In this document: piece by piece, positions 42,250 through 58,424 of the stretch | Layout: each line of letters starts with the position of its first letter | How positions within the stretch are numbered: the stretch's first letter is position 1 | From: Diaphorobacter sp. HDW4B | GTDB lineage: Bacteria; Pseudomonadota; Gammaproteobacteria; Burkholderiales; Burkholderiaceae_C | NCBI RefSeq assembly: GCF_011305535.1 | Contig: NZ_CP049906.1 | Location: forward strand, 434,001-498,000 | DNA length: 64,000 bases | Direction: 5' to 3' | Translations under genes and position numbers: made by a program | Notes under the pieces: generated by a model | What the model was told of the DNA's origin: nothing | What the model saw: the letters and a program-made list of their open reading frames with translations, nothing else | Database searches by the model: none

Positions 42250-42584
42250 CAATGCACACTTCTGAGCTGTCTTCCTCTTCCGATACGCCCTCCGTGAGAG
42301 AGGTGCTTCAAGACGCCGTCTCGAAGTCCCCTCTGTCGATTGTCGAGATCGCCGAAAAATCCGGTGTGAGCCGCAAGGCGCTCTACAGCCTTCTCAAGGG
42401 CGATGCCGACCCGCGCCTGTCCACCATCGAAGCGCTGGCACACACCTTGGGTCTGGGCATTGTCGTGGCCCCCAAGGCGGTGGAGCAGCTTCAGCTTCAC
42501 AGGCCCGTGCTCAGGCAAGCTTCAGAGCACTCGAAGATCCGGCGTTTGCTGACGGCTCATGAAGAGAAGGCCAGAAAGGACTGA
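42234..42584 (+). CDS. HipB-like antitoxin (XRE-type helix-turn-helix)
   Basis: This 116-residue protein has an XRE fold: SIVEIAEKSGVSRKALYSLLKGDADPRLSTIEALA at about 35-69, then LGLGIVVAP. It precedes the HipA-like kinase by 4 bases, as HipB does in HipBA systems. It should neutralise the kinase and repress the operon through the two palindromes upstream. An alternative start at 42252 would remove six residues. Neither start has a strong ribosome site, so a leaderless or weakly translated mRNA is possible. Confidence 0.85.
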   Translation: MLVGSSMHTSELSSSSDTPSVREVLQDAVSKSPLSIVEIAEKSGVSRKALYSLLKGDADPRLSTIEALAHTLGLGIVVAPKAVEQLQLHRPVLRQASEHSKIRRLLTAHEEKARKD

Positions 42585-42588
42585 CGCC

Positions 42589-44085
42589 ATGGACCTGAGC
42601 ATTCTCCAAATCTCCATGGCGGGGCCGGATGGCAAGCCGTCGATTCCACTCGGTCTGCTGTTTCGGTACGGTGCCGACCAGCCCAATGGGATTGTGCGAT
42701 TCATCCCGGGGACTGCCTACATCCGCAACCCCGATCGCCCTGTGTTGAGCCTGCTGTTCACCGGCGATACGGAAGAGGAGAGTCAACGTCTTCTGGCGGA
42801 CTTCTATACCGCAGACTTCAATGGCCTGCGCGCGGATTCCGGCAAGCCCGGACCGAATGGCCTGCATCCCTTGCTGTTGCCTGCCTGGTTCCAGAATCTG
42901 CTTCCCGAAGGCACTTTCCGCGAACACATTGCCCAGATTCGCGGCTGCGACGTGACGAACCATTTCGAGCTGCTCGCGGCATGTGGCGCCGATCTGCCCG
43001 GCGCGGTGTATGCGTTGCCGTATGAGGGTGTGACGCCCGAGCTGATGCAGACTTTGGTGACCAACAATCAGGACGCTCTCGAAGTGTCGGTTGTCGAGAC
43101 TCCGCTGGTCGAGGGCATTTCATTGTCCGGTGTGCAGCCCAAGCTCGGTGTGAACGAGGACAGCAAGGGGCGCTATGTGGCCCGCACCAAGCTCAGCGAG
43201 GTCTCGCACATCATCGCCAAGCTGCCGGTCGTCGACTATCCCAGAATGCCCGAGGTGGAACACCTCAGCATGGAGCTGGCACGCATGGCGGGCGTGGATG
43301 CTTGCCAGACCCGCCTCGTGCCGCTGGAAAAGCTTCTGGCCGATCACGTCTATGACCTGGGCTCGCCGGACGAACGCACCACGATGTTCCTCGCGGTGCC
43401 GAGATATGACCGCGACAAGCCGTCGCGGGTGCATGCGGAGGACATGGCACAAGTGCTTGGGTTTCTTCCGCATGAGAAGTACACCACCAAGGTGTCGTAC
43501 TCCCTGCTGATGCAGGTGTTCATGGGCTACCCCAGTCTTGGCGAAGCCGCAGTGCTCGAGCTGCTGCGGCGTCTGGCCGTCAATGAACTCATCGGCAATG
43601 CCGACTGCCACCTGAAGAACATCGGCGTCTACTACCCAAACGGAGTGGACCCGGAGCTGCCTCCTGCCTACGACATCGTGGCGCACCATGTCTTCAATGG
43701 TGCGCAGGGGCATGCGCTCTACATCCTGCCGGAGCGAATGCAAAAGGATCTGGAGGCAAGGCAGTTCAAGGAACTGGAACGAAAGCACCTCGCGGAACAC
43801 GACAAGCCCATGTCGGCAGCGCAAAGTGCCGCTGCGTCCAAGCTGCAGTTGCTGCGACCCAGCACGCTCAAGGTGCTGGCCGAAGAGGTTCAGCTTCCGT
43901 ACAAGCTCCTGCAGACCACCGTGGACAAGGTCGTCACACTGGCCGCCAGAACATGGCCAGCAGCCATCGATGCCAGCGAGTTAACAGCTGTGCAGAAGAC
44001 CAGGATGAAGTCGTTTCTTGAAGGGCATCCAGCCGTGCAAGCCGTGCGGCGACGGCAAAGTCTGCAGAAGACGAAGAGCCTTTGA
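42589..44085 (+). CDS. HipA-like Ser/Thr kinase toxin
   Basis: This 498-residue HipA-family kinase has the N-terminal couple_HipA region (PLLLPAWFQNLLPEGTFRE), the autophosphorylation/P-loop-like segment SLSGVQPK at 178-185, the catalytic NADCHLKN at 337-344 and the metal-binding YDIV at 361-364. All key residues are present, so it should be active. HipA enzymes phosphorylate glutamyl-tRNA synthetase or other targets and induce growth arrest. It is about 50 residues longer than E. coli HipA. The start ATG follows the HipB stop by 4 bases. Confidence 0.9.
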   Translation: MDLSILQISMAGPDGKPSIPLGLLFRYGADQPNGIVRFIPGTAYIRNPDRPVLSLLFTGDTEEESQRLLADFYTADFNGLRADSGKPGPNGLHPLLLPAWFQNLLPEGTFREHIAQIRGCDVTNHFELLAACGADLPGAVYALPYEGVTPELMQTLVTNNQDALEVSVVETPLVEGISLSGVQPKLGVNEDSKGRYVARTKLSEVSHIIAKLPVVDYPRMPEVEHLSMELARMAGVDACQTRLVPLEKLLADHVYDLGSPDERTTMFLAVPRYDRDKPSRVHAEDMAQVLGFLPHEKYTTKVSYSLLMQVFMGYPSLGEAAVLELLRRLAVNELIGNADCHLKNIGVYYPNGVDPELPPAYDIVAHHVFNGAQGHALYILPERMQKDLEARQFKELERKHLAEHDKPMSAAQSAAASKLQLLRPSTLKVLAEEVQLPYKLLQTTVDKVVTLAARTWPAAIDASELTAVQKTRMKSFLEGHPAVQAVRRRQSLQKTKSL

Positions 44086-46749: not shown

Positions 46750-47313
46750 TCACTGCCCGATCAGTTCGACGATATGCGGTACCAGGTCCAGCACGTTCTT
46801 GAACTGATGGCCTCGCTTGTCGTGGAACTGGAGGATTTGGGCATGCCGGAGCTCCTTGACCGTGCGGGGCACATCGATGCGTTCGTCATCCATGGCGATG
46901 GCCACTTTGACATTCGCCCATAGCACTTCCGAGTATCCTGTATCCGGCCACGAATTCTGGTCTTTTGAATCTGGTTTGTAGTGACTCAGTGCGGCTTCCA
47001 TGCCTGCACGTTCTGGATGGTCCCGAAACACCGTCAATTCGGGGCGTAGACTGGGATTGATCAGGAATGCCTTGGTGTCGTAACGCCCACTCAAAAGTAG
47101 TGAGTACAAACCTCCAAGACTCGATCCGATAACGGCACTTATTCGTTCGCTTTGAACGATATGGGCCAAAGCAGGAAGATCTATTCGTGGGTCTGAATGG
47201 TGCGTTGGGATGAAGACCGTGTGTCCCAGCGACTCCAATGCGGCCTTGAGCGATGTGGTTTTCTCGCTGTTGCCGGATGAGCCGTGTCTGTGAATGTAGA
47301 GAATTTTTCCCAT
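46750..47313 (-). CDS. YqiA/UPF0227-like alpha/beta hydrolase
   Basis: This 187-residue small esterase-like protein starts MGKILYIHRHGSS and has the nucleophile elbow GSSLGGLYSLLL, Asp/His-containing C-terminal segments (AMDDERIDV, HDKRGHQFKN) and the FLINPSLRP segment typical of UPF0227. A GTG 42 bases upstream is an alternative start. It is divergent from the PP2C-like gene, and the shared 288-base gap carries two copies of the island operator, so it is probably part of that regulon. Confidence 0.82.
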   Translation of the reverse strand: MGKILYIHRHGSSGNSEKTTSLKAALESLGHTVFIPTHHSDPRIDLPALAHIVQSERISAVIGSSLGGLYSLLLSGRYDTKAFLINPSLRPELTVFRDHPERAGMEAALSHYKPDSKDQNSWPDTGYSEVLWANVKVAIAMDDERIDVPRTVKELRHAQILQFHDKRGHQFKNVLDLVPHIVELIGQ

Positions 47314-47497
47314 GGATCGTAGTGGTTCCTTGCTTGCAAATTGTGGTTCAGTCACCAGCCCTCTTCATTTCCCGGAGGCATGCGTTCGTCATCGACAAGC
47401 AGTTTTTGGATGAGCGCGTGGACGGTGTGTGTATGCTTGTCATCTCCAATTTTGCGCCTGTCTTGCGGCGGTGATGAGCTTAATTATCTGCACGCAG

Positions 47498-47601: not shown

Positions 47602-48708
47602 ATGAGACAGACCAGTACCGCCCAGCCCTTCGCCGTAGAGGTAGGAGCCTTTCAGTTTTCTCGCATTCGGGATGAGGTCAAGCACAAGCCGGCTGCTCAG
47701 CCAAATGCCATGTTGATGAATCTGGGCGCGGTGCAGCATCTTCTGCAGGAGCAATCCATCTATTGCGCGCCGCCCGTTGTCAGTGCCGATGGGGTGTGGC
47801 TTTCGGTGGCAGGGGGGAGTCGAGAGACATCCGCCGATGCGCAATCCAGCCGTACGCTTTTGGCAGCACTGCATGGACTTCTGGATGCGTTTCCCGTGGG
47901 CGGCGATGTGGCTGGTCGTCACTCTGCCTTGCCGGTGCGCGCATTGCATGCGAGGAAGACGTCGGCCAAGCGTCACATGGACAAGCTGACGCCTGAAGCT
48001 TTTCCTTCCGTCGCGTCCTTGCATGTGAGCGATGGTCAGATCTGCGCTGTCCATTGCGGTGAAGCGCGCATCTGGCGGCTGCGCCATACCGAGTCGGAGC
48101 ATGTGGAAGTCAAATTGCTCAGCCGCGCAAAACAGGATGCATCCGATCGCGAATTGGATATGGTGCAAATCGATCTGCGCTCGTGTGGCAACACCTGGGT
48201 CCATGCGAACTATTCGGACGTGCGCGAGGGTGATGTGTACCTGCTGTCGCTCGCGGGCATTCATGACGTGCATGCCGGCATGGACCTCGCGCAATTGTGG
48301 AACCCTGCCGAGAGCCTGCACTACAACCTGCACACGCTGGAATGCGTCTGGCGCTCATGGGGCATGGACGAGCAGATTTCGGTCGTGGCGCTGAAGTGCC
48401 ATGGATCGGATGCGGTGACCGATTCTTCGTCGGTGTGCAGAGCCACTGGCGAGCAGGTGGGACGTCTGCAGGATCTGATTCGGTCCTCGACAGATTGCGT
48501 TTCCATTTCCTGGATCCAGCGACGTATGCGAGTGGGCTATCTCCATGCATGGGAGCTGCTGGAGCATCTTTTCCTGGAGGGCACTCTCGTGCGGCATTGG
48601 AAAGAAGATGAAGAGGGAGGAGCGCGCCTGTTCTGCGCATCTCGTCCCGGTGGCCAGCCAAAGCCGGGACAGATCTGGCTGCGCCCACAGACCTGGCTCA
48701 ACGTCTGA
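47602..48708 (+). CDS. PP2C-like protein with C-terminal FtsK-gamma-like winged helix
   Basis: This 368-residue protein has a PP2C-fold pattern over about 1-267: SADGVWLSVAGG (VADGMGG-like), ASLHVSDGQICAVHCGEAR (ending where PP2Cs have GDSR), EGDVYLLSLAGIHDV (SDGLTD-like) and a final DEQISVVALKC. Key metal aspartates appear replaced (GDSR to GEAR, DG to AG), so it may be a pseudophosphatase. Residues ~288-330 (VSISWIQRRMRVGY, LLEHLFLEGTLV) match the FtsK gamma DNA-reading winged helix. I know no described protein with this fusion. It precedes the tandem AAA+ gene. Confidence 0.7.
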   Translation: MRQTSTAQPFAVEVGAFQFSRIRDEVKHKPAAQPNAMLMNLGAVQHLLQEQSIYCAPPVVSADGVWLSVAGGSRETSADAQSSRTLLAALHGLLDAFPVGGDVAGRHSALPVRALHARKTSAKRHMDKLTPEAFPSVASLHVSDGQICAVHCGEARIWRLRHTESEHVEVKLLSRAKQDASDRELDMVQIDLRSCGNTWVHANYSDVREGDVYLLSLAGIHDVHAGMDLAQLWNPAESLHYNLHTLECVWRSWGMDEQISVVALKCHGSDAVTDSSSVCRATGEQVGRLQDLIRSSTDCVSISWIQRRMRVGYLHAWELLEHLFLEGTLVRHWKEDEEGGARLFCASRPGGQPKPGQIWLRPQTWLNV

Positions 48709-48740
48709 TGGACTGTGGACCAGCCGGTGGATTTTTTCAT

Positions 48741-48757
48741 GCGACACAAAACGTCGC
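48741..48757. promoter_or_regulatory. Island operator (GCGAC-N7-GTCGC)
   Basis: A perfect GCGAC-ACAAAAC-GTCGC inverted repeat ends 21 bases before the AAA+ ATPase start. Read on the other strand it is followed by the same ATG as the copy at 47498. The position would block transcription or translation of the ATPase gene. Confidence 0.65.
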
Positions 48758-48778
48758 GTCCCTTGAGATGATGAAGCT

Positions 48779-50959
48779 ATGGAAAATCAAGTCATATCCA
48801 CCATTGAGGTACCTTGCTCGACGTCGGGCAGCCTGATTCGCGTGGACCCTGTCATATACCTCTGGATTCTGCGCATCCTGCTGCGTCTTGGCGGCCACCG
48901 CAAGTTCATCAAAACCTTTGGGTTCATGGACGATGAATTGGCCGAGGCCATCGGTATGGAGACATGGCTGGAGGACGGCGTCGCCACCTCGCGCAAGGAT
49001 CTGCGGGCAATCGTGAAACGGAACAAGTTTCGCATGGATGAAACGGTCGAGTTCGACGCGTCGGGTGCCTTGGCCCATGTGCGTGAAGAGCATGAGGCGC
49101 TGGAGCCACAAGCGGCCAGTCTGACCATGCGCGGTTGCCTGCGCCGCAACGTGGAACAACTGGCCGAGCTGGCGGGGTTGAGTCATGTGGACTGTCGGAT
49201 TCTGGAGTTCGCTGTGCTCATGCACAACGAACAGATGCTTCATGAAGCGGTGGGCTTGTTGGGGAACCTGACATCGACCAAAGCCTTCCATGCACTCTCC
49301 GTCATTCTGGATCTGCCTGAGCCGGACGTTCGCGCAGCGCTGGGCGTGCAGGGCGTTCTGTCACGTTCCGGATTGCTGACGCTGGATCGCACCAGCTCGG
49401 CGGAGCTTCATGCCAAGCTGTGTCTGCTGTGCGAAGTCTTTGCCGATCTGATGGCGACCTCGGACATCGCGCCTGTCGGGTTGCTGCGAGGCACGGTCAC
49501 AGCAGCTGCTCCCGGTCACCTGCAGCTCTCCGACTACACGCACATCCAGCCTTCTCTGGACATTTTGCTGCCCTATCTGCGCCAAGCCACCAAGTCGCGC
49601 AAGAGTGGGGTCAACATCTTTCTGCATGGCGCTCCGGGCACGGGCAAGAGCCAGCTGGTCCGCACGCTTGCCAAGGAATTGCAGAGCGAGCTGTTCGAAG
49701 TCGCTTGCGAGGATGAGGATGGCGACGCGCTCAAGGGTGAGCGCCGACTGCGCTCTTACAGGGCTGCGCAGAGCTTCTTTGCACACCGACAGGCGCTGAT
49801 GGTGTTCGACGAGGTGGAGGACGTGTTCTCCTGCAGCGATGAAGGCTTCTCCCGAGGTACCGACAGCACCGCTCAAGTGCGCAAGGGCTGGATCAATCGC
49901 ATGCTGGAGGAGAACCCGATGCCGACGTTCTGGCTCTCCAACTCCATGCGTGGCCTGGATCCGGCCTTTGTTCGGCGTTTCGACATGGTGATCGAATTGC
50001 CTGTGCCGCCCAGAAGTCAGCGCGAAAAGATTCTGAAGGACAGTGCTGCCGACCTGCTCGAGCCCTACCGGCTTGCGCGACTTGCCGAAGCCGAAGTGCT
50101 GGCCCCGGCCATCATTGCCAAGGCCGGTTCCGTCGTTCGTGCAATCCAGCAGGATCTGGAGCCCGGCAAGGTGGGCGAGTCCTTCGAGCGCCTGATCTCC
50201 AGCACGATCGAGGCGCAGGGGCACAGTCCCTTGTCGTCGAACGACATGCATCGCCTTCCCGAAATCTACGACCCCGGCTTCATTCATGCCGATGTCGATC
50301 TGGCCAGCGTGGCGAACGGACTTCAGTCGGTGGGCAGTGGCCGACTCTGTCTGTATGGACCTTCTGGCACTGGGAAAACCGCGTACGGGCGTTGGCTCGC
50401 GCAGCAACTGGGTGTGCCGCTGCACGTCAAACGGGCCTCGGACCTGATGTCCATGTGGGTCGGTGGCAACGAGAAAAACATCTCGCGCGCGTTTCGCAAC
50501 GCGCAGGACGATGGCGCGGTGTTGCTGATGGACGAGGTGGACAGCTTTCTGCAGGACAGGCGTGGCGTCAGGAGTGGCTGGGAGGTGAACCTCGTCAACG
50601 AGATGCTCACGCAGATGGAGTCGTTTTCCGGCGTGTTCATCGCCTCGACCAATCTGATGGACAACCTGGACCAGGCCGCGTTGCGACGCTTTGACCTCAA
50701 GGTGAAGTTTGATTTTCTGCGTGCGGAGCAGGCCCGTGCGCTGCTGCTCAGGCATTGCGTGGCGCTGGGTTTGCAAGCGCCGCGCAGCGATGCAATGGAG
50801 CGCCTCGATCGCTTGCAGCAGCTGACGCCCGGCGATTTTGCGGTCGTGCTGCGCCAGCATCGCTTTCGACTATTCGACAGTGCGGACATGCTGGTGTCCG
50901 CTCTGGATGCGGAATGCGCTGTCAAGGAGTCGGCCAAACGCAGCATCGGCTTCCGTTGA
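48779..50959 (+). CDS. Tandem AAA+ ATPase
   Basis: This 726-residue protein has a helical N-terminal region (1-250) and two AAA+ modules. D1 has GAPGTGKS at 284-291, Walker B VFDEVED at 342-348 and RRFD at 399-402. D2 has GPSGTGKT at 527-534, LLMDEVDS at 582-589 and RRFD at 636-639. Both carry complete ATPase motifs and Asn sensors (LSNSMRG, ASTNLMD). The layout recalls Cdc48/FtsH-type remodelers, without their known N- or protease domains. It lies between the PP2C-like/FtsK-gamma gene and the nuclease and probably remodels a protein or DNA-bound partner from this set. Confidence 0.9.
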   Translation: MENQVISTIEVPCSTSGSLIRVDPVIYLWILRILLRLGGHRKFIKTFGFMDDELAEAIGMETWLEDGVATSRKDLRAIVKRNKFRMDETVEFDASGALAHVREEHEALEPQAASLTMRGCLRRNVEQLAELAGLSHVDCRILEFAVLMHNEQMLHEAVGLLGNLTSTKAFHALSVILDLPEPDVRAALGVQGVLSRSGLLTLDRTSSAELHAKLCLLCEVFADLMATSDIAPVGLLRGTVTAAAPGHLQLSDYTHIQPSLDILLPYLRQATKSRKSGVNIFLHGAPGTGKSQLVRTLAKELQSELFEVACEDEDGDALKGERRLRSYRAAQSFFAHRQALMVFDEVEDVFSCSDEGFSRGTDSTAQVRKGWINRMLEENPMPTFWLSNSMRGLDPAFVRRFDMVIELPVPPRSQREKILKDSAADLLEPYRLARLAEAEVLAPAIIAKAGSVVRAIQQDLEPGKVGESFERLISSTIEAQGHSPLSSNDMHRLPEIYDPGFIHADVDLASVANGLQSVGSGRLCLYGPSGTGKTAYGRWLAQQLGVPLHVKRASDLMSMWVGGNEKNISRAFRNAQDDGAVLLMDEVDSFLQDRRGVRSGWEVNLVNEMLTQMESFSGVFIASTNLMDNLDQAALRRFDLKVKFDFLRAEQARALLLRHCVALGLQAPRSDAMERLDRLQQLTPGDFAVVLRQHRFRLFDSADMLVSALDAECAVKESAKRSIGFR

Positions 50960-51037
50960 ACGGCCCGTTTGATCGGCCTATTTTCTGCCGATCTCATGAC
51001 ACAATTCGTCACATCAGCGAAGAGGGACGAGACAAGA

Positions 51038-52537
51038 ATGCGCACGCTTTCCAAATCGAAATTGCTGGCCTTCCGCCAGTGTCCAAGGCGGCTCTGGTTG
51101 GAGGTGCACAAGCCCGAGTTGCGCGAGGACTCCAGCGCCACGCAGGCAAGTTTCGCCACGGGGCACAAGGTGGGTGAGATTGCCCAGCGGCTCTACGACC
51201 CCAACGGTGTCGGCGCGGTGCTCGATCCTTTCACTGAAGGATTTGATGAGGCCTTCGCACGCACCCAGACCTTGCTGCGGACCAAGCAGCCTATCTTCGA
51301 GGCGGGCTACAAAGCAGGAGGTGCGTTGGCGTTCGCTGACGTCATGCTGCCCGTGTCGCGCGCTGGAAAGTCCGTTTGGCGCATGGTGGAGGTCAAATCA
51401 TCCACCTCCGTCAAAAGTTATCACCGTGACGATGCGGCCGTGCAGGCCTTTGTGGCACGAGCGTGTGGCGTACCACTTTCTGCCATCGCACTGGCGCACA
51501 TCGACAGCTCCTGGGTGTATCCGGGCGGTGGCGACTACGAGGGCCTGCTTGTCGAAAGCGATTTGACCGAAGAGGCCTTCGCCAGAGAATCGGAGGTCCG
51601 CGACTGGATTGCTGGAGCGCAGTCGGTTGCGGCATCAAAGCGTGAGCCGAGCGTCGCCACGGGAGAGCAGTGCAATGACCCATATGCCTGTGGTTTCGCC
51701 GCGCATTGCCAGAGCCAGGAAACCCAGGCGGAGCAGCCCATTCACTGGCTGCCGGGGCCGTTCAGCGCGGCCCTGAAGACCCATGTGGCCGACAACGGTT
51801 TGACCGAACTGCGCGATGTGCCGGACAGCTTGCTCAACGAGCGGCAAAGGCGGGTCAAGTCGCAAACGCTTTCGGGCAAGGCGCACTTCGAGCAAGCCGC
51901 TGCGGCGCAGTCGTTGAGCGCCTACAAACTGCCCGCCTATTTCATGGACTTCGAGACCATCCAATTTGCGGTTCCGATCTGGAAGGGCACGAGACCCTAC
52001 CAACAGATTCCGTTCCAGTTCAGCGTGCATCGACTCTCGCGCACCGGCAAGCTGGAGCAGCAGGCGTTTCTCGATCTGTCGGGCAACGACCCATGCAGAT
52101 GTTTTGCCGAGGCCCTCATCGATGCCTGCGGAGAACGTGGCCCGATCTATGTCTACAACGGCGCGTTCGAGAAAAAGCGCATCAGCGATCTGGCCGAGTT
52201 CTTTGCCGATCTCTCGGAGTCGCTGCTGGCCTTGAACGAACGTGTGGTCGATCTGCTGCCGATCGCGCGCGCACATTTCTATCACCCGAGCCAGAAGGGC
52301 AGTTGGAGCATCAAGGCGGTGCTGCCTGCGCTTTGCCCCGATCTGAAATATGCCGATCTGGATGGCGTGCAGGACGGAGGGGCTGCCATGGATGCCTATC
52401 TGGAAGCTCTGGCGGTGCAGACGACACCCGCGCGCAAAGCGGAAATCGAAAAGCAATTGCTGGCGTATTGCGCGCTGGACACCTACGCACTGGTCCGACT
52501 GTGGGCCGCATTCACCGGAAACACACTGAAGAGTTGA
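51038..52537 (+). CDS. Fe-S RecB/Cas4-like nuclease with C-terminal DEDD exonuclease domain (DUF2779 type)
   Basis: This 499-residue protein has an N-terminal RecB/Cas4-like PD-(D/E)xK domain: Cys15 in FRQCPRRLW, Asp101 in ADVMLP, Glu118-x-Lys120 in VEVKSS, and a C-x5-C-x5-C cluster at 212, 218 and 224 that with Cys15 would hold a [4Fe-4S] centre. The C-terminal half begins YFMDFETIQF (Asp304-x-Glu306), contains YVYNGAFEKKRI and ends with CALDTYALVRLW, which together look like a DEDD-type exonuclease. Both sites look intact. The start at 51038 begins the conserved MRTLSKSKLL. It is 1 base from the WYL gene. Confidence 0.85.
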   Translation: MRTLSKSKLLAFRQCPRRLWLEVHKPELREDSSATQASFATGHKVGEIAQRLYDPNGVGAVLDPFTEGFDEAFARTQTLLRTKQPIFEAGYKAGGALAFADVMLPVSRAGKSVWRMVEVKSSTSVKSYHRDDAAVQAFVARACGVPLSAIALAHIDSSWVYPGGGDYEGLLVESDLTEEAFARESEVRDWIAGAQSVAASKREPSVATGEQCNDPYACGFAAHCQSQETQAEQPIHWLPGPFSAALKTHVADNGLTELRDVPDSLLNERQRRVKSQTLSGKAHFEQAAAAQSLSAYKLPAYFMDFETIQFAVPIWKGTRPYQQIPFQFSVHRLSRTGKLEQQAFLDLSGNDPCRCFAEALIDACGERGPIYVYNGAFEKKRISDLAEFFADLSESLLALNERVVDLLPIARAHFYHPSQKGSWSIKAVLPALCPDLKYADLDGVQDGGAAMDAYLEALAVQTTPARKAEIEKQLLAYCALDTYALVRLWAAFTGNTLKS

Positions 52538-52538
52538 T

Positions 52539-53513
52539 ATGCCGAAACGACCCGATACCCTGGAGACCGTGAAGCTGGCGATGGAACTGCTCAAACGCAT
52601 TCCACGCCACGGAAAAATCACCGCGCAGCAACTGCATGAGCAATTGATGGACGCGGGCATCCAACGCGAGCTGCGCTCGGTGCAGCGTCAGTTGGAAATG
52701 CTCAGCGAACATTTCGACATCGAGCGCGATGATCGCAGCCGTCCTTATGGCTACTCATGGCAGAAGGACTCCAAGGCTTTTGCGCTGCCTTATCTCACGA
52801 CACAGGAAGCGCTATTGTTGCGTCTGGCCGAGGAGCATCTCAGGCAACTGCTGCCAACGCGTCTGATGCGCTCCATGGATGCCTTCTTTGCGCAGGCGCG
52901 TCGCAATCTGCATGGCAACGAAAATGCGAAGCTGGAGCGCGAGTGGCCCAAGAAGATCCGGGTCGTGGCAACCAGCCAGCCTCTGTTGCCGCCGACGATT
53001 TCGCAGGACGTATTCGCGTCGGTGACCGAAGCCCTCTATTCCAACAAATGGCTGACGCTGGACTACCGCAATGCCAACAAGAAGCGCAGCACGGCCGAAG
53101 TGATGCCGCTGGGCTTGGCACAACAGGGACCGAGGTTCTATCTGGTGTGCCGTTACCGCGACTACCAGAACGAGCGCAGTCTGGCCATGCACCGCATTCT
53201 CGGAGCCAAGGTCAGCACGCTTTCATTCGATCGTCCGTCGGAGTTCGATCTGAAAAAATACGACGACGACGGCCGCTTTGGTTTCGGCAACGGCAAGCGC
53301 GTTCGCTTGTCCTTCCAGATCGAGAACGCCGCCGGATACCACTTGCTGGAATCGATGTTGTCGCAGGACCAGCAATCGGAAGAGTTGCCCAATGGTGACC
53401 TGAAGATCACCGCTACCGTGGTGGACAGCGCCATGCTGGAGTGGTGGCTGCGAGGCTTCGGTGATGCGGTGAAAGAGGTCACGCGCACGCCAGTGGACGA
53501 GGTTGCCGTTTGA
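52539..53513 (+). CDS. WYL-domain transcriptional regulator
   Basis: This 324-residue regulator has an N-terminal winged helix (about 5-70, with HEQLMDAGIQRELRSVQRQL), a WYL domain (WLTLDYRNAN, then FYLVCRYRDYQNERSLAMHRI) and a C-terminal WCX region ending EWWLRGFGD. It starts 1 base after the nuclease stop. WYL proteins sense nucleic acid or nucleotide ligands and often control defence genes. This one is the best candidate for binding the GCGAC-N7-GTCGC sites upstream of the same genes (inference). Confidence 0.88.
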   Translation: MPKRPDTLETVKLAMELLKRIPRHGKITAQQLHEQLMDAGIQRELRSVQRQLEMLSEHFDIERDDRSRPYGYSWQKDSKAFALPYLTTQEALLLRLAEEHLRQLLPTRLMRSMDAFFAQARRNLHGNENAKLEREWPKKIRVVATSQPLLPPTISQDVFASVTEALYSNKWLTLDYRNANKKRSTAEVMPLGLAQQGPRFYLVCRYRDYQNERSLAMHRILGAKVSTLSFDRPSEFDLKKYDDDGRFGFGNGKRVRLSFQIENAAGYHLLESMLSQDQQSEELPNGDLKITATVVDSAMLEWWLRGFGDAVKEVTRTPVDEVAV

Positions 53514-53557: not shown

Positions 53558-53917
53558 TCAGTAGTAAGGGGTGGGCTCGCGGCCCAACCCCGCGATGAAC
53601 CACTCGATGTTCTTCTTCTTCAACTTGAGCAGGTAAAGAATCTTGCTGCAGAACACCGCCGGACCTTCGGAGTTGCGCTGCCAGTGAAAAATGCCGTCGA
53701 GCCGACCCACCAGTTCCACGCACGCATCGTAGGTCTTGTCGTTGTAGCTCGACGATCAGTAGATGCGGATGGCGAGCATCTTTTCGTCTTCGCTGAGCTT
53801 GGATTTCTCCAGAACTGCAAAGGGCGCTTCGCGAAAAATGAAGGCATCCGTGAAAACGGTCCGAAAAAACTCCTGAGACAACTCACCTTTTCTGGTGCTG
53901 GATGTCGTGCTGCTCAT
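53558..53917 (-). pseudogene. Small gene interrupted by in-frame TGA
   Basis: From ATG at 53917 (preceded by a very strong GGAGGAG site) the frame reads MSSTTSSTRKGELSQEFFRT to LAIRIY, then TGA at 53756-53758. It continues in the same frame with SSSYNDKTYDACVELVGRLD and on to a stop at 53558. Both halves look like real protein, with 53 and 65 codons. A TGG-to-TGA nonsense change is the simplest reading; readthrough cannot be excluded. It follows the Cys-rich gene by 24 bases as the second gene of a leftward operon. The family is unknown. Confidence 0.65.
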
Positions 53918-53941
53918 TGGATCTCCTCCCTCGTTGGTCAA

Positions 53942-54520
53942 TCAGTTGGATTTGGCGATCAGCGCATTCACGTTGTTCACCAACGACTGCACCCTCGCGA
54001 CGCGGTGCTCTGCTTGAAGGCATTGCTCCCAGAAGGACTCCTCGAACACTTTGTTCAGAGCGATTTCAAAGCGCTCCCCTGAATCGAGGAGGTCCACGAT
54101 TCCGTGTGCGATGGAGTAGTACTCGTTCGACATTCCCTCGTTCATATTGCAGCAGGTACCCATCGGATCGGCCTGCCACAGCAGCAGACTCATGGTGTTT
54201 ACGTCGATACGTCGATTGACCAGAACGGGCTTGGGCTGACGAAACACGTCGAGGCGATCCTGCTCTTCCAGCTTGTCGGTCAATTGAACAAGATGTTCTT
54301 CACGCTGCTCAGGTGAGAGCTTGGCAGCATCGAAGCGTGCAGCAAAGGCTTGGGTCACGGCTTCTCTGGCGCTGCTTCCATTGGCGCGCTGCTGCACGAT
54401 GGTCTGCGCTTCCGGCAGGTATTCAAATTCACCGCTCACTTCAAGACCATCGAAGCATCCGCAACCGGTCTGCATGATGTCCATCTGCACGAGGACGTCG
54501 TTGAGAAATTCTTTGTCCAT
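53942..54520 (-). CDS. Hypothetical protein with CxC and CC motifs
   Basis: This 192-residue acidic, mainly helical protein starts MDKEFLNDVLVQMD with AGAGGT about 9 bases upstream. Cys20 and Cys22 (TGCGCFDG) and a Cys-Cys pair (GTCCNMNEG) might bind metal. I recognise no family. It has no signal peptide or membrane segment. An island operator copy lies about 90 bases upstream and the TGA-interrupted gene lies downstream, so the two form a unit of the same regulon (inference). Confidence 0.65.
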   Translation of the reverse strand: MDKEFLNDVLVQMDIMQTGCGCFDGLEVSGEFEYLPEAQTIVQQRANGSSAREAVTQAFAARFDAAKLSPEQREEHLVQLTDKLEEQDRLDVFRQPKPVLVNRRIDVNTMSLLLWQADPMGTCCNMNEGMSNEYYSIAHGIVDLLDSGERFEIALNKVFEESFWEQCLQAEHRVARVQSLVNNVNALIAKSN

Positions 54521-54608
54521 GGGCTCTGTACCTCTTGTTTGAAACTCGGATCGGGTGCCGACACCATTTGCTGAACCGGCTCTTTTGATTCCCAATGTAG
54601 TGTTCGAG

Positions 54609-54625
54609 ACGACAAATCGTGTCGC
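54609..54625. promoter_or_regulatory. Island operator (ACGAC-N7-GTCGC)
   Basis: ACGAC-AAATCGT-GTCGC differs by one base from the perfect palindrome at 48741 and shares GTGTCGCA with the copies at 47498 and 48741. It lies upstream of the leftward Cys-rich gene. Confidence 0.55.
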
Positions 54626-54688
54626 ACTCGACAGGTCGTGGGGTTCATACGTGATTTGAGCGTGCTGCTTTTTTCCCCTTGCAGACCG

Positions 54689-55597
54689 TTATCGTTTGGT
54701 GGTGCTCTTCTTGCCCGCAGCATCAAACCCCGGCGCCAGTGGCGCGCTGGAGACTCCGTCCAGTTGAGCTGGGTCCTGCAGGCGCAGTCGAAACTCGGGT
54801 CCACGCAAGGAGGCCTCCGGGCTGCAGTCCACCTGCCATTGACGCAGAACATAGCCTGCCACGGCGGCGCGCAGATGCACCACCAGTCGCCCATTCTTCA
54901 TGCCAAAGTCCTTGGCAATGACCTTGGGGTGCGGGTGTGCGGGGTGGGGCACCAAGGTCAACGCCAGCTGTCGTTGCCATTGTTCATCGGCCTCGATCAG
55001 TTCGTCGGCTGTTGGCGGCGCAAGAGCATCCGATGTCTTCACCCGCTCCATGCGCGTCAACACCAGATCCCGAAAATGCCCTTTCACCCGATCGAATGCC
55101 CGCACATGCCAACGCAGGCCGGAGTCCACGATGGAATGCGGCACGATCACGCGCTCCCCAGGCCCTTTCTTCATGGAGTGGTAGGTCAACGAAAGCGTCT
55201 GTCGGTTGCGGATGGCGCGCGTAATGGTGGCCAGCGTGTCCAGTGACGGCTGGTTCAGGCGCTCCGGCGTCGCATGCGAAATCAGCTCGCCAGTGGCCAC
55301 AGGTTCGCCCGCACCGAAGCCGGAAGTCAGTGCTGCAAGCGTGCGGTTCACATCATGCTGGAACAGCGGGCGAAAGCTCGGCAGGTAGCGGTACACCTTC
55401 TGCTCGTACTGAACGTTCTTCGGTGCCAGTTCCTTGTAGAGCGCCATGTCTCTGGTTCCCGCAGCCGTGGCTACTTCGAAGCGCTCCAGCACATGCTTTC
55501 GTGCCACCTCGCCGAAGAACCACACGCGGAACTCGATGAAGGCAAGGCGCTGTCGTTGAGCGGCGGACAGGGTCGCGGGGGCTGTGGCGTTGTTCAT
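54689..55597 (-). CDS. BrxR/CapW-like WYL-domain regulator
   Basis: This 302-residue protein has the N-terminal winged helix typical of BrxR/CapW proteins (RQRLAFIEFRVWFFGEVARK, then ELAPKNVQYEQKVYRYLPSF), a WYL domain (LSLTYHSMKKGPGERVIVPH, GLRWHVRAFD) and a C-terminal domain. The ATG at 55597 is used; a TTG 54 bases upstream is possible. It is divergent from the phosphatase gene across 102 bases that contain an inverted repeat. BrxR/CapW proteins repress phage-defence operons, which suggests it controls the phosphatase. Confidence 0.85.
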   Translation of the reverse strand: MNNATAPATLSAAQRQRLAFIEFRVWFFGEVARKHVLERFEVATAAGTRDMALYKELAPKNVQYEQKVYRYLPSFRPLFQHDVNRTLAALTSGFGAGEPVATGELISHATPERLNQPSLDTLATITRAIRNRQTLSLTYHSMKKGPGERVIVPHSIVDSGLRWHVRAFDRVKGHFRDLVLTRMERVKTSDALAPPTADELIEADEQWQRQLALTLVPHPAHPHPKVIAKDFGMKNGRLVVHLRAAVAGYVLRQWQVDCSPEASLRGPEFRLRLQDPAQLDGVSSAPLAPGFDAAGKKSTTKR

Positions 55598-55642
55598 GTG
55601 GAGTTGTGGCTCAAATGCAATAGAGGCGAAGTCTAGCACCAA

Positions 55643-55687
55643 TGAAATCAAATTGATGCCATAATGAAAGCGATTAAAATGATTTCA
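55643..55687. promoter_or_regulatory. Inverted repeat in divergent WYL/phosphatase promoter
   Basis: TGAAATCA (55643) and TGATTTCA (55680) are inverted copies 29 bases apart in the AT-rich gap between the BrxR-like gene and the phosphatase gene. The left copy overlaps ATCAA-A-TTGAT. These are candidate half-sites for the WYL regulator. Confidence 0.45.
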
Positions 55688-55699
55688 CATGGAGGATTC

Positions 55700-56776
55700 A
55701 TGAAGCTGGTTCAAGGGTTGGCATCGGGTGATCTGGACATTGTTGGCGATGTGCATGGCGAATACGACGCGCTGTGCCAATTGCTTCAACACCTGGGATA
55801 TGACGAGCAAGGCAACCACCCACAAGGGCGGAGTCTGGTGTTCGTCGGTGATCTGTGCGACCGCGGGCCGAACACACCAGCAGTCCTCGCACGGGTGCAG
55901 CAACTGGTTCAGGCTGGCCGGGCGCAGGTGGCGCTGGGAAACCACGAAATCAACTTGCTGCGTGACGATGCCAAGGACGGCGCCGGATGGTTCTTCGACG
56001 AACGGGAGCAACGCGATCAGCACAAGTACGCACCGTTCGCTCGCGTGGCGGACACGGAGCGCGAGCGGGTTCTGGCGTTCGTCTCCACGCTTCCCATCGC
56101 GTTGGAGCGGGATGACATCCGCATCGTCCATGCCTCCTGGCTGCAGGACAAGATCGACCGAGTGCGTGACCTTCCCTTGAGCGCCCTGTGTGATCAATAC
56201 GATGCGTGGGAGGGCTCTGCCGACGAGATCGCCAGCACTACCGACTTGGGTCAGCGCATGCAAGACGAACTCGTCGACTGGCCCTGGGGTCTGGAAGACC
56301 GCGACCGCACCCCACCGTTTCTGCATGCGCGCGCCGAACACGAAGCCAACAAGCAGATGCTTAATCCGCTGAAAGTGTTGACCTCCGGGGTCGAGCGCAA
56401 GGGCCGCAAGCCATTCTTCGCCGGTGGCAAATGGCGCTTCGCCGATCGAGTCGCCTGGTGGGATGACTACGAGCATGCAACGCCCGTGGTGGTGGGGCAC
56501 TACTGGCGCCGACTCAACCCGATCAACCGCGCCGACGTGGGCAAGGAAGACATCGACCTGTTCGACGAAATCAAGCCCCTGCACTGGCATGGAAAGCGTG
56601 GCAACGTCTTCTGCGTCGACTACTCCGCAGGCGGCCGCTGGGCCGAGCGCAAGGCCAGCGCGCCGCTGGGCAAGGACTACAAACTCGCCGCGCTGCGCTG
56701 GCCAGAGCGGGTTCTGACCTTCGACGATGGCAGCACCCTTGCAACCGAAGGTTTTGAGAAGGGCGGCGACATCTGA
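55700..56776 (+). CDS. PP1/PNKP-like metallophosphoesterase
   Basis: This 358-residue calcineurin-type phosphatase has GDVHG at 16-20, GDLCDRGP at 50-57, GNHE at 80-83, a His in IVHASW and VVVGHYW. All metal-binding motifs are intact. It resembles bacterial PrpA/ApaH and the phosphatase module of bacterial PNKP, which removes terminal phosphates from nucleic acids. GGAGG lies just upstream of the ATG. A BrxR-like regulator faces it and a small hypothetical gene follows, so a role in RNA/nucleotide processing during stress or infection is plausible. Confidence 0.88.
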   Translation: MKLVQGLASGDLDIVGDVHGEYDALCQLLQHLGYDEQGNHPQGRSLVFVGDLCDRGPNTPAVLARVQQLVQAGRAQVALGNHEINLLRDDAKDGAGWFFDEREQRDQHKYAPFARVADTERERVLAFVSTLPIALERDDIRIVHASWLQDKIDRVRDLPLSALCDQYDAWEGSADEIASTTDLGQRMQDELVDWPWGLEDRDRTPPFLHARAEHEANKQMLNPLKVLTSGVERKGRKPFFAGGKWRFADRVAWWDDYEHATPVVVGHYWRRLNPINRADVGKEDIDLFDEIKPLHWHGKRGNVFCVDYSAGGRWAERKASAPLGKDYKLAALRWPERVLTFDDGSTLATEGFEKGGDI

Positions 56777-56863
56777 TCGGGCAGTCGATCCACGCAAGTC
56801 CGGTCAGTTCCACAACCGATTGGGCCGAGCTTCATCGGCCCGGAAAGGCAAGGTGATCTCTTT

Positions 56864-57322
56864 ATGTACAACATCCACAGACACGAAATCTACCGATTCG
56901 AGAACGATGGACTGCTGTACCGGACGTACTACTTCGAAGACGGAGAGATCGCCTTCACCGTGACCGGCGACACACTGCGGCTAGGTCTCGTCACCAAGGA
57001 GGACCTCCAGTGGAGCTGGGACTGGATGGAATCGCTGCCCTGTGTGCAGGAGACCTCCACGCTCGTCAACGCACACTCCCAACCATTGCGCGTACTGCGC
57101 CATATCGCACAGCGGATCGCGCAATATGTGGGGAAACACCGGTCCATGTTCTTCTATTACAAGGTGGTCAACGATCCTCGGCAGATGAGGATCTATGACC
57201 GGCTTGTGGCGCGCCATGCGGGCGTGGCCGGGCTTTATGAGCAGACGCGGGATGCTGCTGGGGAGTATGTGATGTTCACTTTGAAGGGGTCGGTTTGGCT
57301 CGCTCCCACATTGCCAAATTGA
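56864..57322 (+). CDS. Hypothetical protein
   Basis: This 152-residue protein starts MYNIHRHEIYRFENDGLLYR with AAGGTGA 7 bases upstream. It has beta-rich N-terminal and helical central parts, many Tyr/Phe/Trp residues, and no signal or membrane segment. I recognise no family. It lies 87 bases after the phosphatase on the same strand and may be co-transcribed with it. Confidence 0.65.
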   Translation: MYNIHRHEIYRFENDGLLYRTYYFEDGEIAFTVTGDTLRLGLVTKEDLQWSWDWMESLPCVQETSTLVNAHSQPLRVLRHIAQRIAQYVGKHRSMFFYYKVVNDPRQMRIYDRLVARHAGVAGLYEQTRDAAGEYVMFTLKGSVWLAPTLPN

Positions 57323-57521
57323 TGTTCGAGATGCACATTGCCATTTTTCTATTGTTTCGCATGTGTTGTGGCCTATGAATGATGGGTCTATCACTATCTG
57401 GACATCGGGTAATTGAAACTTTCGCTGCCGAGGAAAAAATATCGAAATCGGACATGGTTTGTCCAAACACTCACTTACGATTCGTTTCATCGAACCGAAA
57501 TTCAGCGAGAACAACAGACCA

Positions 57522-58424
57522 ATGTCCACTTCTTCCTTCGACACCATCGCCTACCGCCTCAGCGAGATTCTTTTGCGGCTGAATGCTGGGGAGGCTCTGG
57601 AAATCAAGAAACTGGCCGACGACTTTGCGGTCAATGAGCGCACGATTCGGCGCGATCTGAACGAGAGGTTCAGCTTTTTGGGATTGGAAAAGAAGGGCAG
57701 CCGCTATACCTTGCCGCGCTACAAGCTGGGTACTTACAGTCAACAGGATGTGCAGCGGATCGCGAGCCTGGCTGGGTTGCAAGGCATGTCGCCACGGTTA
57801 TCCAGCGATTTTCTTGGAGACCTGCTCGACAACAGTTTGCGCGGGGCCTTGTTGGTGCATGGCACGCGGGCCGAGGACATCAGCGGCAAGGAGCACGAGT
57901 TGGCGCAACTGCGTGTCGGGATTCAGGATTCCCGCATTGTTCAGTTTGAATATTGCAAGCCGGATGACACGCGCAAGATGGTCAGTGTGAACCCATACAA
58001 GCTGGCTTTGAGTGATGGGTCCTGGTATCTGCAGGCGACGGATCAGGGCAAGGTCAAATCGTATGCAGTATCTCGCATTGATCGCTTGCTGGTGACCTCT
58101 GACAGTTTCTCGCCGGATGCGTCGGTGCACGAATATCTCAAAAGTGAGGACACGATTTGGCTGAATCAGGAAAAGGCCAAGGTCGTGCTCAAGGTGGCTC
58201 CGCCGGCGGCTTCGTATTTTCAGCGGCGTCAGCTGATCGGGAGCCAGAAAATCGAGATGACGCTGGAAGACGGCGAGATTCTGGTGTCGGGATTGATCGC
58301 GCATCCCAACCAGATTCTGCCGGTGGTTCGATATTGGATTCCATATATCCGCGTGATCAGCCCGGACGGGCTGCAGGCTGAGCTGGACGCTCAGCTCAAG
58401 GCTTATCTGGGCGTTCCCGGGTAA
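57522..58424 (+). CDS. WYL-domain transcriptional regulator (third in island)
   Basis: This 300-residue protein has a DeoR-type helix-turn-helix (EIKKLADDFAVNERTIRRDL) near residues 24-43, a WYL domain (VQFEYCKPDDTRKMVSVNPY, GSWYLQATDQ) and a C-terminal WCX-like part. The ATG at 57522 begins STSSFDTIAYRL; an upstream in-frame ATG at 57459 adds an unlikely extension. GGACA-N5-TGTCC at 57451-57465 may be its operator. It ends the island before the zinc-ribbon genes. Confidence 0.87.
   Translation: MSTSSFDTIAYRLSEILLRLNAGEALEIKKLADDFAVNERTIRRDLNERFSFLGLEKKGSRYTLPRYKLGTYSQQDVQRIASLAGLQGMSPRLSSDFLGDLLDNSLRGALLVHGTRAEDISGKEHELAQLRVGIQDSRIVQFEYCKPDDTRKMVSVNPYKLALSDGSWYLQATDQGKVKSYAVSRIDRLLVTSDSFSPDASVHEYLKSEDTIWLNQEKAKVVLKVAPPAASYFQRRQLIGSQKIEMTLEDGEILVSGLIAHPNQILPVVRYWIPYIRVISPDGLQAELDAQLKAYLGVPG

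Follow-up and report, generated by a model that had tools for sequence, protein, structure and literature searches.

A set of four genes, P1 to P4, in a stretch of 64,000 nucleotides from Diaphorobacter sp. HDW4B (hereafter the window; part of contig C2 of a 6.21 Mb genome in two contigs) may form a WYL-switched ATPase-nuclease operon of a modular bacterial conflict system, with P1 as an adaptor. We hold this reading with middling confidence, and the wider set of related genes probably serves defence against viruses or DNA damage. P1 joins a predicted PP2C fold that has lost its metal aspartates to a winged helix of the FtsK-gamma type; P2 is a tandem AAA+ ATPase, P3 a predicted Cas4-like/DUF2779 nuclease and P4 a WYL regulator (Table 1). 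The four genes recur together elsewhere, are under purifying selection and share an upstream palindrome with their relatives.

The initial annotation had described four co-directional, closely spaced ORFs (open reading frames), and their coordinates agree with this: P1 and P2 are separated by 70 bp, P3 and P4 by 1 bp. P3 probably starts at the ATG at 51038, the start of its homologues, rather than at the TTG at 50969; this start was chosen by hand and not by a gene-calling tool. From about 44 to 60.8 kb, the window finds only patchy matches within the genus and has a G+C content of 52-61% (versus mostly 60-66% before it), so the four-gene set sits in an accessory region. The other genus members share the part at 38.8-42.1 kb, at a single place and in two of them incompletely; the part at 60.8-64 kb is conserved in three.

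P1 joins a PP2C-type fold without its metal aspartates to a winged helix

The fold of the first 270 residues of P1 was assigned through its family. A profile of P1 and six relatives matched solved PP2C phosphatases (1txo, E 6.2e-15; 2cm1, E 7.6e-15), and relatives of P1 score PF13672 at 2.6e-9, 5.6e-15 and 4.2e-15. Similarity of this order to PstP-type structures (E 6e-15) points to a PP2C fold in P1, which when used alone against PDB sequences found no PP2C chain. The aspartates at four aligned positions, which we take to be the PP2C metal sites, are replaced by G, E, A and E (ADG to AGG, GD to GE, TDG to LAG and DD to EQ). Those at ADG and TDG are kept in 9 of the 11 aligned sequences, with L076 as another protein that has lost them, and the PP2C-part relatives within the family retain phosphatase residues. 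P1 was not filed as a phosphatase because its metal-binding aspartates are replaced; with all four gone, the view of P1 as an active phosphatase was rejected.

The tail of P1 matches the Pfam family FtsK_gamma at residues 297-327 (E 1.6e-5; 25.0 bits, under the curated cut-off of 30.6), and the orthologue in a second genome, G300, scores above that cut-off (31.4 bits, E 1.6e-7). An AlphaFold model of P1 of middling quality (7-row alignment, mean pLDDT 66.5, pTM 0.65) places helices at residues 283-296, 302-309 and 313-325 and strands at 330-335 and 342-347, in the model the order of elements of a winged helix. Profile, alignment and model thus bear out the earlier description of a PP2C protein that has lost its metal aspartates and carries a C-terminal domain of FtsK-gamma type.

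P1 had also been expected to read short oriented DNA motifs as FtsK gamma does, and this part was not borne out. At the alignment columns of N1296, R1300 and E1303, presumably the KOPS contacts of E. coli FtsK gamma, P1 has L, E and E. Because two of the three residues are changed, P1 is unlikely to read KOPS or FtsK-type oriented motifs, and such a role was rejected. The same changes would agree with a gamma domain that contacts protein rather than DNA. XerD is a known partner of FtsK gamma, and a P1 that binds it would tie the set to recombination. The interaction of FtsK gamma with XerD is the title subject of one paper (PMC5052618). Nothing in the fetched loci, in which no search was aimed at Xer genes or dif sites, suggests such a link, and we regard it as very unlikely.

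Domains of P2, P3 and P4

P2 matches AAA in two stretches (Pfam E 7.7e-42), and its second AAA domain (residues 523-645) is nearest to Cdc48/VCP-like ATPases among solved structures. IetA models of PADLOC and NCBIfam match the AAA part as well (E 1.8e-36 and 5e-34). A widespread AAA+ relative at 35-39% identity, with a member in most family genomes searched, was rejected as the same gene: it has different neighbours, and its 20-kb stretch (L067) holds no palindrome of the kind described below with up to two mismatches. The copy in the genome of Diaphorobacter sp. HDW4B (C2:659524-661404, 37% identity) lies between DNA polymerase II and MoeA genes.

In P3, the match to DUF2779 is strong (Pfam E 2.2e-41), that to Cas4 is lower (E 1.4e-7) and that to PD-(D/E)XK weak (0.017); four Fe-S cysteines were read by eye, and P3 alone found nothing useful among PDB sequences. 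DUF2779 was classed in 2014 among predicted 3'-5' exonucleases, and the available text of that study notes that a PD-(D/E)XK-like domain is fused to it (PMC3985635). P4 matches WYL in Pfam (E 2.2e-12) and WCX just under the cut-off (6.6e-5), its N-terminal winged helix was read by eye, and matches to the solved WYL regulators 9cu3, 9pfq and 8tp8 are weak (E 2e-5 to 5e-4). Judged by sequence, P4 has the winged-helix, WYL and WCX make-up of the WYL defence and damage regulators BrxR, CapW and DriD. PADLOC-DB 2.0.0 did not recognise P1-P4 as one described system and gave single-domain matches to AAA, Cas4 and WYL only; IetAS, BREX and other PADLOC systems were rejected, as their models do not fit.

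Recurrence and selection

All four genes, with the gamma tail on P1 and in the order of the window, were found in G300, where P2, P3 and P4 are 71%, 82% and 78% identical to the window's proteins. The two ends of the G300 contig fall within P1 and P4, P2 can be read in two frames at its start, and completeness and contamination of this genome stand at 83% and 6%. Between window and G300, dN/dS was 0.17 for P2, 0.08 for P3 and 0.11 for P4, and within P1 it was 0.21 in the PP2C part and 0.14 in the gamma part; these values are rough, as dS exceeds 1, and every one lies far below 1. That is, the four genes are under purifying selection, and the dead phosphatase P1 is therefore being kept. P1 occurs in three of the six genomes of the genus as grouped by the search tool. 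G147 holds a relic only, an in-frame junction of P1 residues 1-269 with P3 residues 449-494 (L048 9013-10134), which is evidence that the two genes were once neighbours.

Among 299 genomes of the family, relatives of the PP2C part occur in eight including the window's own (nine match, one via the gamma tail only), the P2 clade, defined by a chosen cut of at least 42% identity, in 14 including its own (174 match overall, mostly the widespread relative) and P3 in 30. The P2 clade is also present in five of seven non-index genomes that carry the PP2C part, versus 8 of 291 (p ~1.4e-6, or 8.4e-7 if the clade is counted as 13 genomes); between P1 and P3 the association is weak (3 of 7 versus 26 of 291, p 0.022). 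A class-wide search with query A2 matched 79 of 369 genomes. Judged by score, almost all matches outside the own genome are general PP2C phosphatases, and five places among them were examined as sequence. A plasmid search with P1 gave no match.

Locus architecture was determined by a profile search of the ORFs in fetched loci. At least one further member of the set was present in 12 of the 14 PP2C loci, and P4 lay directly 3' of P3 in all 13 assessable loci with a P3 of at least 54% identity; four further P3 loci end at contig edges and were left unjudged, and L131 holds fragments of both genes. A WYL gene lies no more than a few kb from distant P3 relatives in L055, L128 and L151, the last of which, from another family, unites P3, PP2C and WYL within 7 kb. 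P3 adjoins P2 in 6 of the 19 P2-clade loci, and a WYL gene lies in the fetched stretch at 14 of them, which is weak evidence alone as WYL genes are common. In L117, PP2C-P3-P4 is preceded by a DnaA-like AAA gene and not by P2 (425-2079 covers this gene and an intact PP2C). Sirtuin genes were found in ten scanned loci (E 1e-10 or better) and a 244-aa family, F20, in five (L052, L053, L078, L079 and L160).

Known defence genes accompany several of these sets: GmrSD in L048, L050, L053, L120 and L129, PLD and SNF2-type genes in L116 and on plasmid L069 (SNF2 only, as annotated, on plasmid L071) and BREX genes on plasmid L073. No GmrSD, PLD/SNF2 or BREX gene adjoins the set of the window itself. 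The initial annotation had named recurrent co-occurrence of the genes near defence genes as what would support it, and both co-occurrence and a neighbourhood of defence genes are seen, the former in G300, in the P3-P4 adjacency and in the PP2C loci. Neither of the outcomes that it had named as refuting, genes that never recur together or a C-terminal domain of another fold than FtsK gamma, was observed. The fusion turned out not to be a constant part of the set, as a gamma-bearing PP2C protein occurs in only 2 of the 14 PP2C-type loci (window and G300). Of that earlier interpretation, the unusual fusion, the co-occurrence, the defence neighbourhood and a winged helix of DNA-binding type stand; a fixed fusion and the reading of oriented motifs do not.

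Some of the neighbours recall the conflict systems centred on ADP-ribosylglycohydrolase with WYL/Nudix regulators that are predicted in section 3.8 of PMC9503650 (ADP-ribosylglycohydrolase, WYL/Nudix regulator, phosphatase, chaperone and REase), and the set might be a system for processing ADP-ribose of that type. ADP-ribosylglycohydrolase-type genes stand with P2-type ATPase and WYL genes in L066, L072 and L075, and the sirtuins of ten loci, a SLOG protein and a macro-domain gene in one plasmid locus would fit as well. However, ADP-ribosylglycohydrolase, sirtuin and macro genes are absent from P1-P4, six neighbours scanned with Pfam gave no such match, and PMC9503650, in its accessible part, selects neighbourhoods without sirtuins and names neither DUF2779 nor PP2C. 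We consider this alternative quite unlikely. The macro-domain gene lies with a tubulin/FtsZ-family gene beside P2-P3-P4 on the Rhodoferax antarcticus plasmid (L069 7773-9773), and L051 has a weak FtsZ_C match between P2 and P4.

A palindromic site is shared by genes of the set

The core GACR-N5-YGTC was derived from an inverted repeat that precedes P1 and from an 18-bp match shared by the regions upstream of P1 and of P2. Within 150 bp upstream of starts that were partly set by hand, it was found before 11 of 18 P2, 5 of 16 P3, 5 of 12 PP2C, 3 of 10 SIR2/F20 and 0 of 10 P4 genes, versus 10 of 356 control genes from these loci (p 2e-11 for P2 versus control). Its flanks extend it to TGCGACA-N5-TGTCGCA, also written TGCGAC-N7-GTCGCA. 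The 925 kb of fetched loci contain 12 exact and 22 one-mismatch palindromes, versus 0 exact and 0.4 one-mismatch copies in Markov shuffles; after removal of the duplicate locus L161, 11 exact and 21 one-mismatch copies (32 palindromes) remain. A genomic control, 398 kb of other stretches of G256 and the window's genome, gave 0 exact and 1 one-mismatch copies. The spacer was 5 in 13 of 13 exact copies (some loci overlap), never 2-4 or 6-9, and 25 of the 32 palindromes are followed within 330 bp by a set gene in the matching orientation. In G256, palindromes precede P2, P3 and a sirtuin-gamma gene at three locations separated by more than 1 Mb, and in G086 they precede P2 and PP2C on different contigs; therefore members that are not neighbours share the site. 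One exact copy, at L162 4488 in a control genome, falls within a gene for a UvrD-type helicase and is unexplained.

Within the window, operator-like elements precede P1, P2 and P3 (Table 1). The second, inverted element before P1 fits a GACR-N5-YGTCGCAY-type search pattern made after its sites had been seen. A further palindrome precedes the minus-strand gene at 53942-54595, which, going by this element, is possibly part of the same regulon. Palindromes lie ~30-60 bp from the P2 start codon, two of them at 112-118, distances that would suit a repressor acting close to the start site as well as an activator of genes with a short leader. A plain TGTCGCATG repeat was rejected as a signal in the window (2 found versus 1.97 expected), where GACA-N5-TGTC alone occurs 3 times versus 1.25 expected.

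Repeated adjacency, co-occurrence even where members lie apart, and the shared palindrome bear on whether the four are unrelated genes that an accessory region has brought together, with no more in common than other neighbours in an island. The variability of the region within the genus, its slightly lower G+C and the separation of members in some genomes would agree with chance; on the three former grounds we rejected it as scarcely probable.

The palindrome core CGAC-N7-GTCG is also that of DriD, a Caulobacter WYL activator sensing ssDNA (single-stranded DNA) whose targets include the endonuclease gene bapE and recJ, according to the accessible text of PMC12340889. P4 could be a DriD-like activator that responds to ssDNA and switches on a repair or cell-death nuclease, making the set a response to DNA damage rather than to phage, and its similarity to solved WYL regulators is in line with this. 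That similarity is weak, however, and the GmrSD, PLD/SNF2 and BREX neighbours and the carriage on plasmids point to conflict systems. We regard a DNA-damage response as possible, if on the unlikely side; it and a conflict system do not exclude each other.

Gamma domains outside FtsK

In 36 genomes, all 11 gamma domains counted outside FtsK (E 1e-4 or better) lie at loci of this kind, ten within ~5 kb of a set member and the G086 copy ~11-12 kb away (carriers in Table 1). That is, the winged helix of P1 belongs to other subunits in relatives, and the gamma domain passes between the proteins of these loci. The HAD_SAK_2-gamma gene of L055 adjoins WYL and DUF2779 genes and two proteins without a Pfam match. 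The choice of the 36 genomes was in part not blind: 30 were selected by P3 and six by other evidence, G206 and G300 partly by gamma itself. In the blind subset, 6 of 29 non-index P3 genomes carry a copy versus 2 of 80 controls (p 0.004); the control copy of G033 is followed by a WYL gene, that of G085 is not. Rows taken for FtsK or for fragments were set aside uninspected by E-value, length or contig edge, including in the 36 genomes a 615-aa frame (G280), a 415-aa frame (G187), a 59-aa frame (G279) and two rows at E 0.009, and in the controls short frames (G055, G019, G008 and G074), a second long frame (G057), a 788-aa frame (G069) and a contig-edge piece (G008). None of the papers listed in a literature search reports a gamma domain outside FtsK.

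Tentatively, and with considerable doubt, we suggest that the gamma winged helix might be a common address tag of a so far undescribed WYL regulon, carried by a sirtuin, SLOG, HAD, dead PP2C or nuclease. It would gather its carrier on DNA with the AAA+ remodeller and the Cas4-like/DUF2779 nuclease once an ssDNA or nucleotide signal switches P4 via TGCGAC-N7-GTCGCA.

Proposed mechanism

The WYL-switched operon would have P4 and P3 as its core. P4 would sit on the palindromes before P1 and P2 and bind a nucleic acid or nucleotide, either ssDNA as in DriD or a ligand of ADP-ribose type as proposed for related WYL systems; the ligand-bound form would turn the genes on when the cell is infected or its DNA damaged. 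P2, a Cdc48-like double AAA+ remodeller and the usual addition to the core, would unfold or remodel a protein target, and P3 would degrade nucleic acid by its Cas4-like endonuclease part and its 3'-5' exonuclease-type DUF2779 part. PP2C, sirtuin, HAD, SLOG and ADP-ribosylglycohydrolase proteins would be interchangeable regulatory enzymes. P1 would serve as adaptor, with the partner-binding surface of PP2C kept and the winged helix brought in, and might direct ATPase and nuclease to marked DNA, as the initial annotation had proposed.

Several observations weigh against this operon and its mechanism. P2, P3, P4 and PP2C are each found without some of the others: the PP2C gene of L049 has no other member beside it (L048, the second exception among the 14, holds only the relic), P3 occurs without P4 as a fragment in L132 and as distant relatives with no WYL gene nearby in L127, L129 and L130, and for 5 of the 19 P2-clade loci the fetched sequence holds no WYL gene. 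The upstream core is absent from 7 of 18 P2, 11 of 16 P3, 7 of 12 PP2C, 7 of 10 SIR2/F20 and 10 of 10 P4 starts, P4 being usually an inner gene. By the 330-bp rule, 7 of the 32 palindromes have no set gene: three closely precede a P2 fragment, an AAA gene and another WYL gene instead, and for the remaining four there is no such gene. The consensus includes the sites that it counts, and the window's own palindromes are imperfect (1, 2 and 2 mismatches). Since the window holds three WYL genes, P4 is not proven to be the binder. P1 itself has no PP2C match in Pfam, PADLOC or NCBIfam.

If the reading is correct, scattered unnamed island genes for AAA+ ATPases, DUF2779 nucleases, PP2C proteins, sirtuins and WYL regulators would belong to a single regulon, recognisable by its control site, which would also make the signal directly testable. 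The gamma domain outside FtsK would be a chromosome-segregation domain reused as an adaptor, and DUF2779, a predicted 3'-5' exonuclease, would gain a context.

Neighbouring genes

Divergent from P1 lies a UPF0227 hydrolase gene (46750-47355, minus strand). Beside the P1-P3 relic of Diaphorobacter caeni, a UPF0227 domain is fused to cREC, a cyclic-phosphate processing receiver (L048 10167-11240). Downstream of P4, the window holds a 217-aa gene, two WYL genes, a calcineurin-like phosphatase gene and a 152-aa gene (53942-58424); the phosphatase matches part of bacterial Pnkp (TIGR04075, E 8.5e-23). Bases 53579-57287 correspond to one G300 contig (C166) at 73% identity. Further upstream are a HipA-type gene (42559-44085) and, immediately preceding it, a 116-aa ORF.

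Table 1. Coordinates of the four genes, their domains and operator-like elements in the window, and carriers of gamma domains outside FtsK
Feature	Position or genome	Strand	Basis or remark
P1	47602-48708	+	ORF call
P1 residues 1-270, PP2C-fold part, all four metal aspartates replaced (pseudophosphatase)	47602-48411	+	
P1 residues 283-347, FtsK-gamma-type winged helix	48448-48642	+	Pfam, orthologue, model, alignment
P2, tandem AAA+ ATPase, 726 aa	48779-50959	+	Pfam, clade search, PDB profile match
P3, Cas4-like PD-(D/E)XK part and DUF2779 DEDD-type part	51038-52537	+	ORF opens TTG 50969
P4, WYL transcription regulator (winged helix, WYL, WCX)	52539-53513	+	Pfam, PDB matches
Operator-like palindrome before P1	47497-47515	.	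one mismatch to TGCGACA-N5-TGTCGCA
Second, inverted operator-like element before P1	47532-47548	-	fits GACR-N5-YGTCGCAY; more than 3 mismatches to 19-bp consensus
Operator-like palindrome before P2	48740-48758	.	two mismatches
Core-only element GACACAATTCGTC before P3	50998-51010	.	flanks not conserved
Operator-like palindrome before minus-strand 217-aa gene 53942-54595	54608-54626	.	two mismatches
Gamma, C-terminal on P1	window, G300		
Gamma, N-terminal on sirtuin (SIR2)	G086, G256, G230, G283		
Gamma on cpYpsA-SLOG protein	G170		
Gamma, C-terminal on HAD_SAK_2 (RNA-repair-type) protein	G206, L055 9863-10540		
Gamma at C-terminal end of DUF2779 nuclease	G187, L128 9022-10893		
Gamma as short separate proteins	G165, G239		

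Comparison with known systems

A literature search, with subscription journals mostly outside it, found no paper with this gene combination. The closest published idea that we found concerns systems predicted to process ADP-ribose, which include WYL regulators and phosphatases (PMC9503650). As far as its accessible text describes them, these have in common with the present loci a WYL regulator, phosphatase-type partners, REase-type nucleases and interchangeable modules; their defining enzyme is absent from the window's set, in which the AAA+ ATPase and DUF2779 nuclease are central, and sirtuins occur in relatives. P3 resembles the TM0106/COG2251-type and DUF2779 RecB-like nucleases (PMC3985635) in joining PD-(D/E)XK and RNase-H-like exonuclease parts in one chain. 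It differs in having no helicase part, and a regulated set is not described in the available portion of that paper.

Like BrxR and CapW (PMC9122601, PMC9122588), P4 is a WYL regulator that may act in defence islands on inverted repeats with a 5-bp spacer, which the repressor BrxR binds according to the accessible text of PMC9122601; in contrast to both, the arms here are TGCGACA/TGTCGCA, and the regulator gene is the last of the set in the window, not the first. With the DriD regulon, as described in the available part of PMC12340889, the set shares the type of WYL regulator, the palindrome core and nuclease targets. The outer bases are TG..CA here, whereas the DriD consensus is ATACGAC-N7-GTCGTAT (ATA..TAT), and DriD activates scattered host genes, whereas the genes here, at whose sites P4 is predicted to bind, cluster in islands.

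IetAS, an anti-phage pair of an AAA+ protein and a protease, is similar in so far as IetA models match the AAA part of P2. P2 lies outside IetA, however, with an NCBIfam score of 118 bits versus a cut-off of 510, and the genes scanned include no protease partner. FtsK gamma and P1, finally, have the sequence profile and the predicted winged helix in common; P1 differs in having no FtsK motor and in two of the three presumed KOPS contacts, and the gamma domain is here fused to other enzymes.

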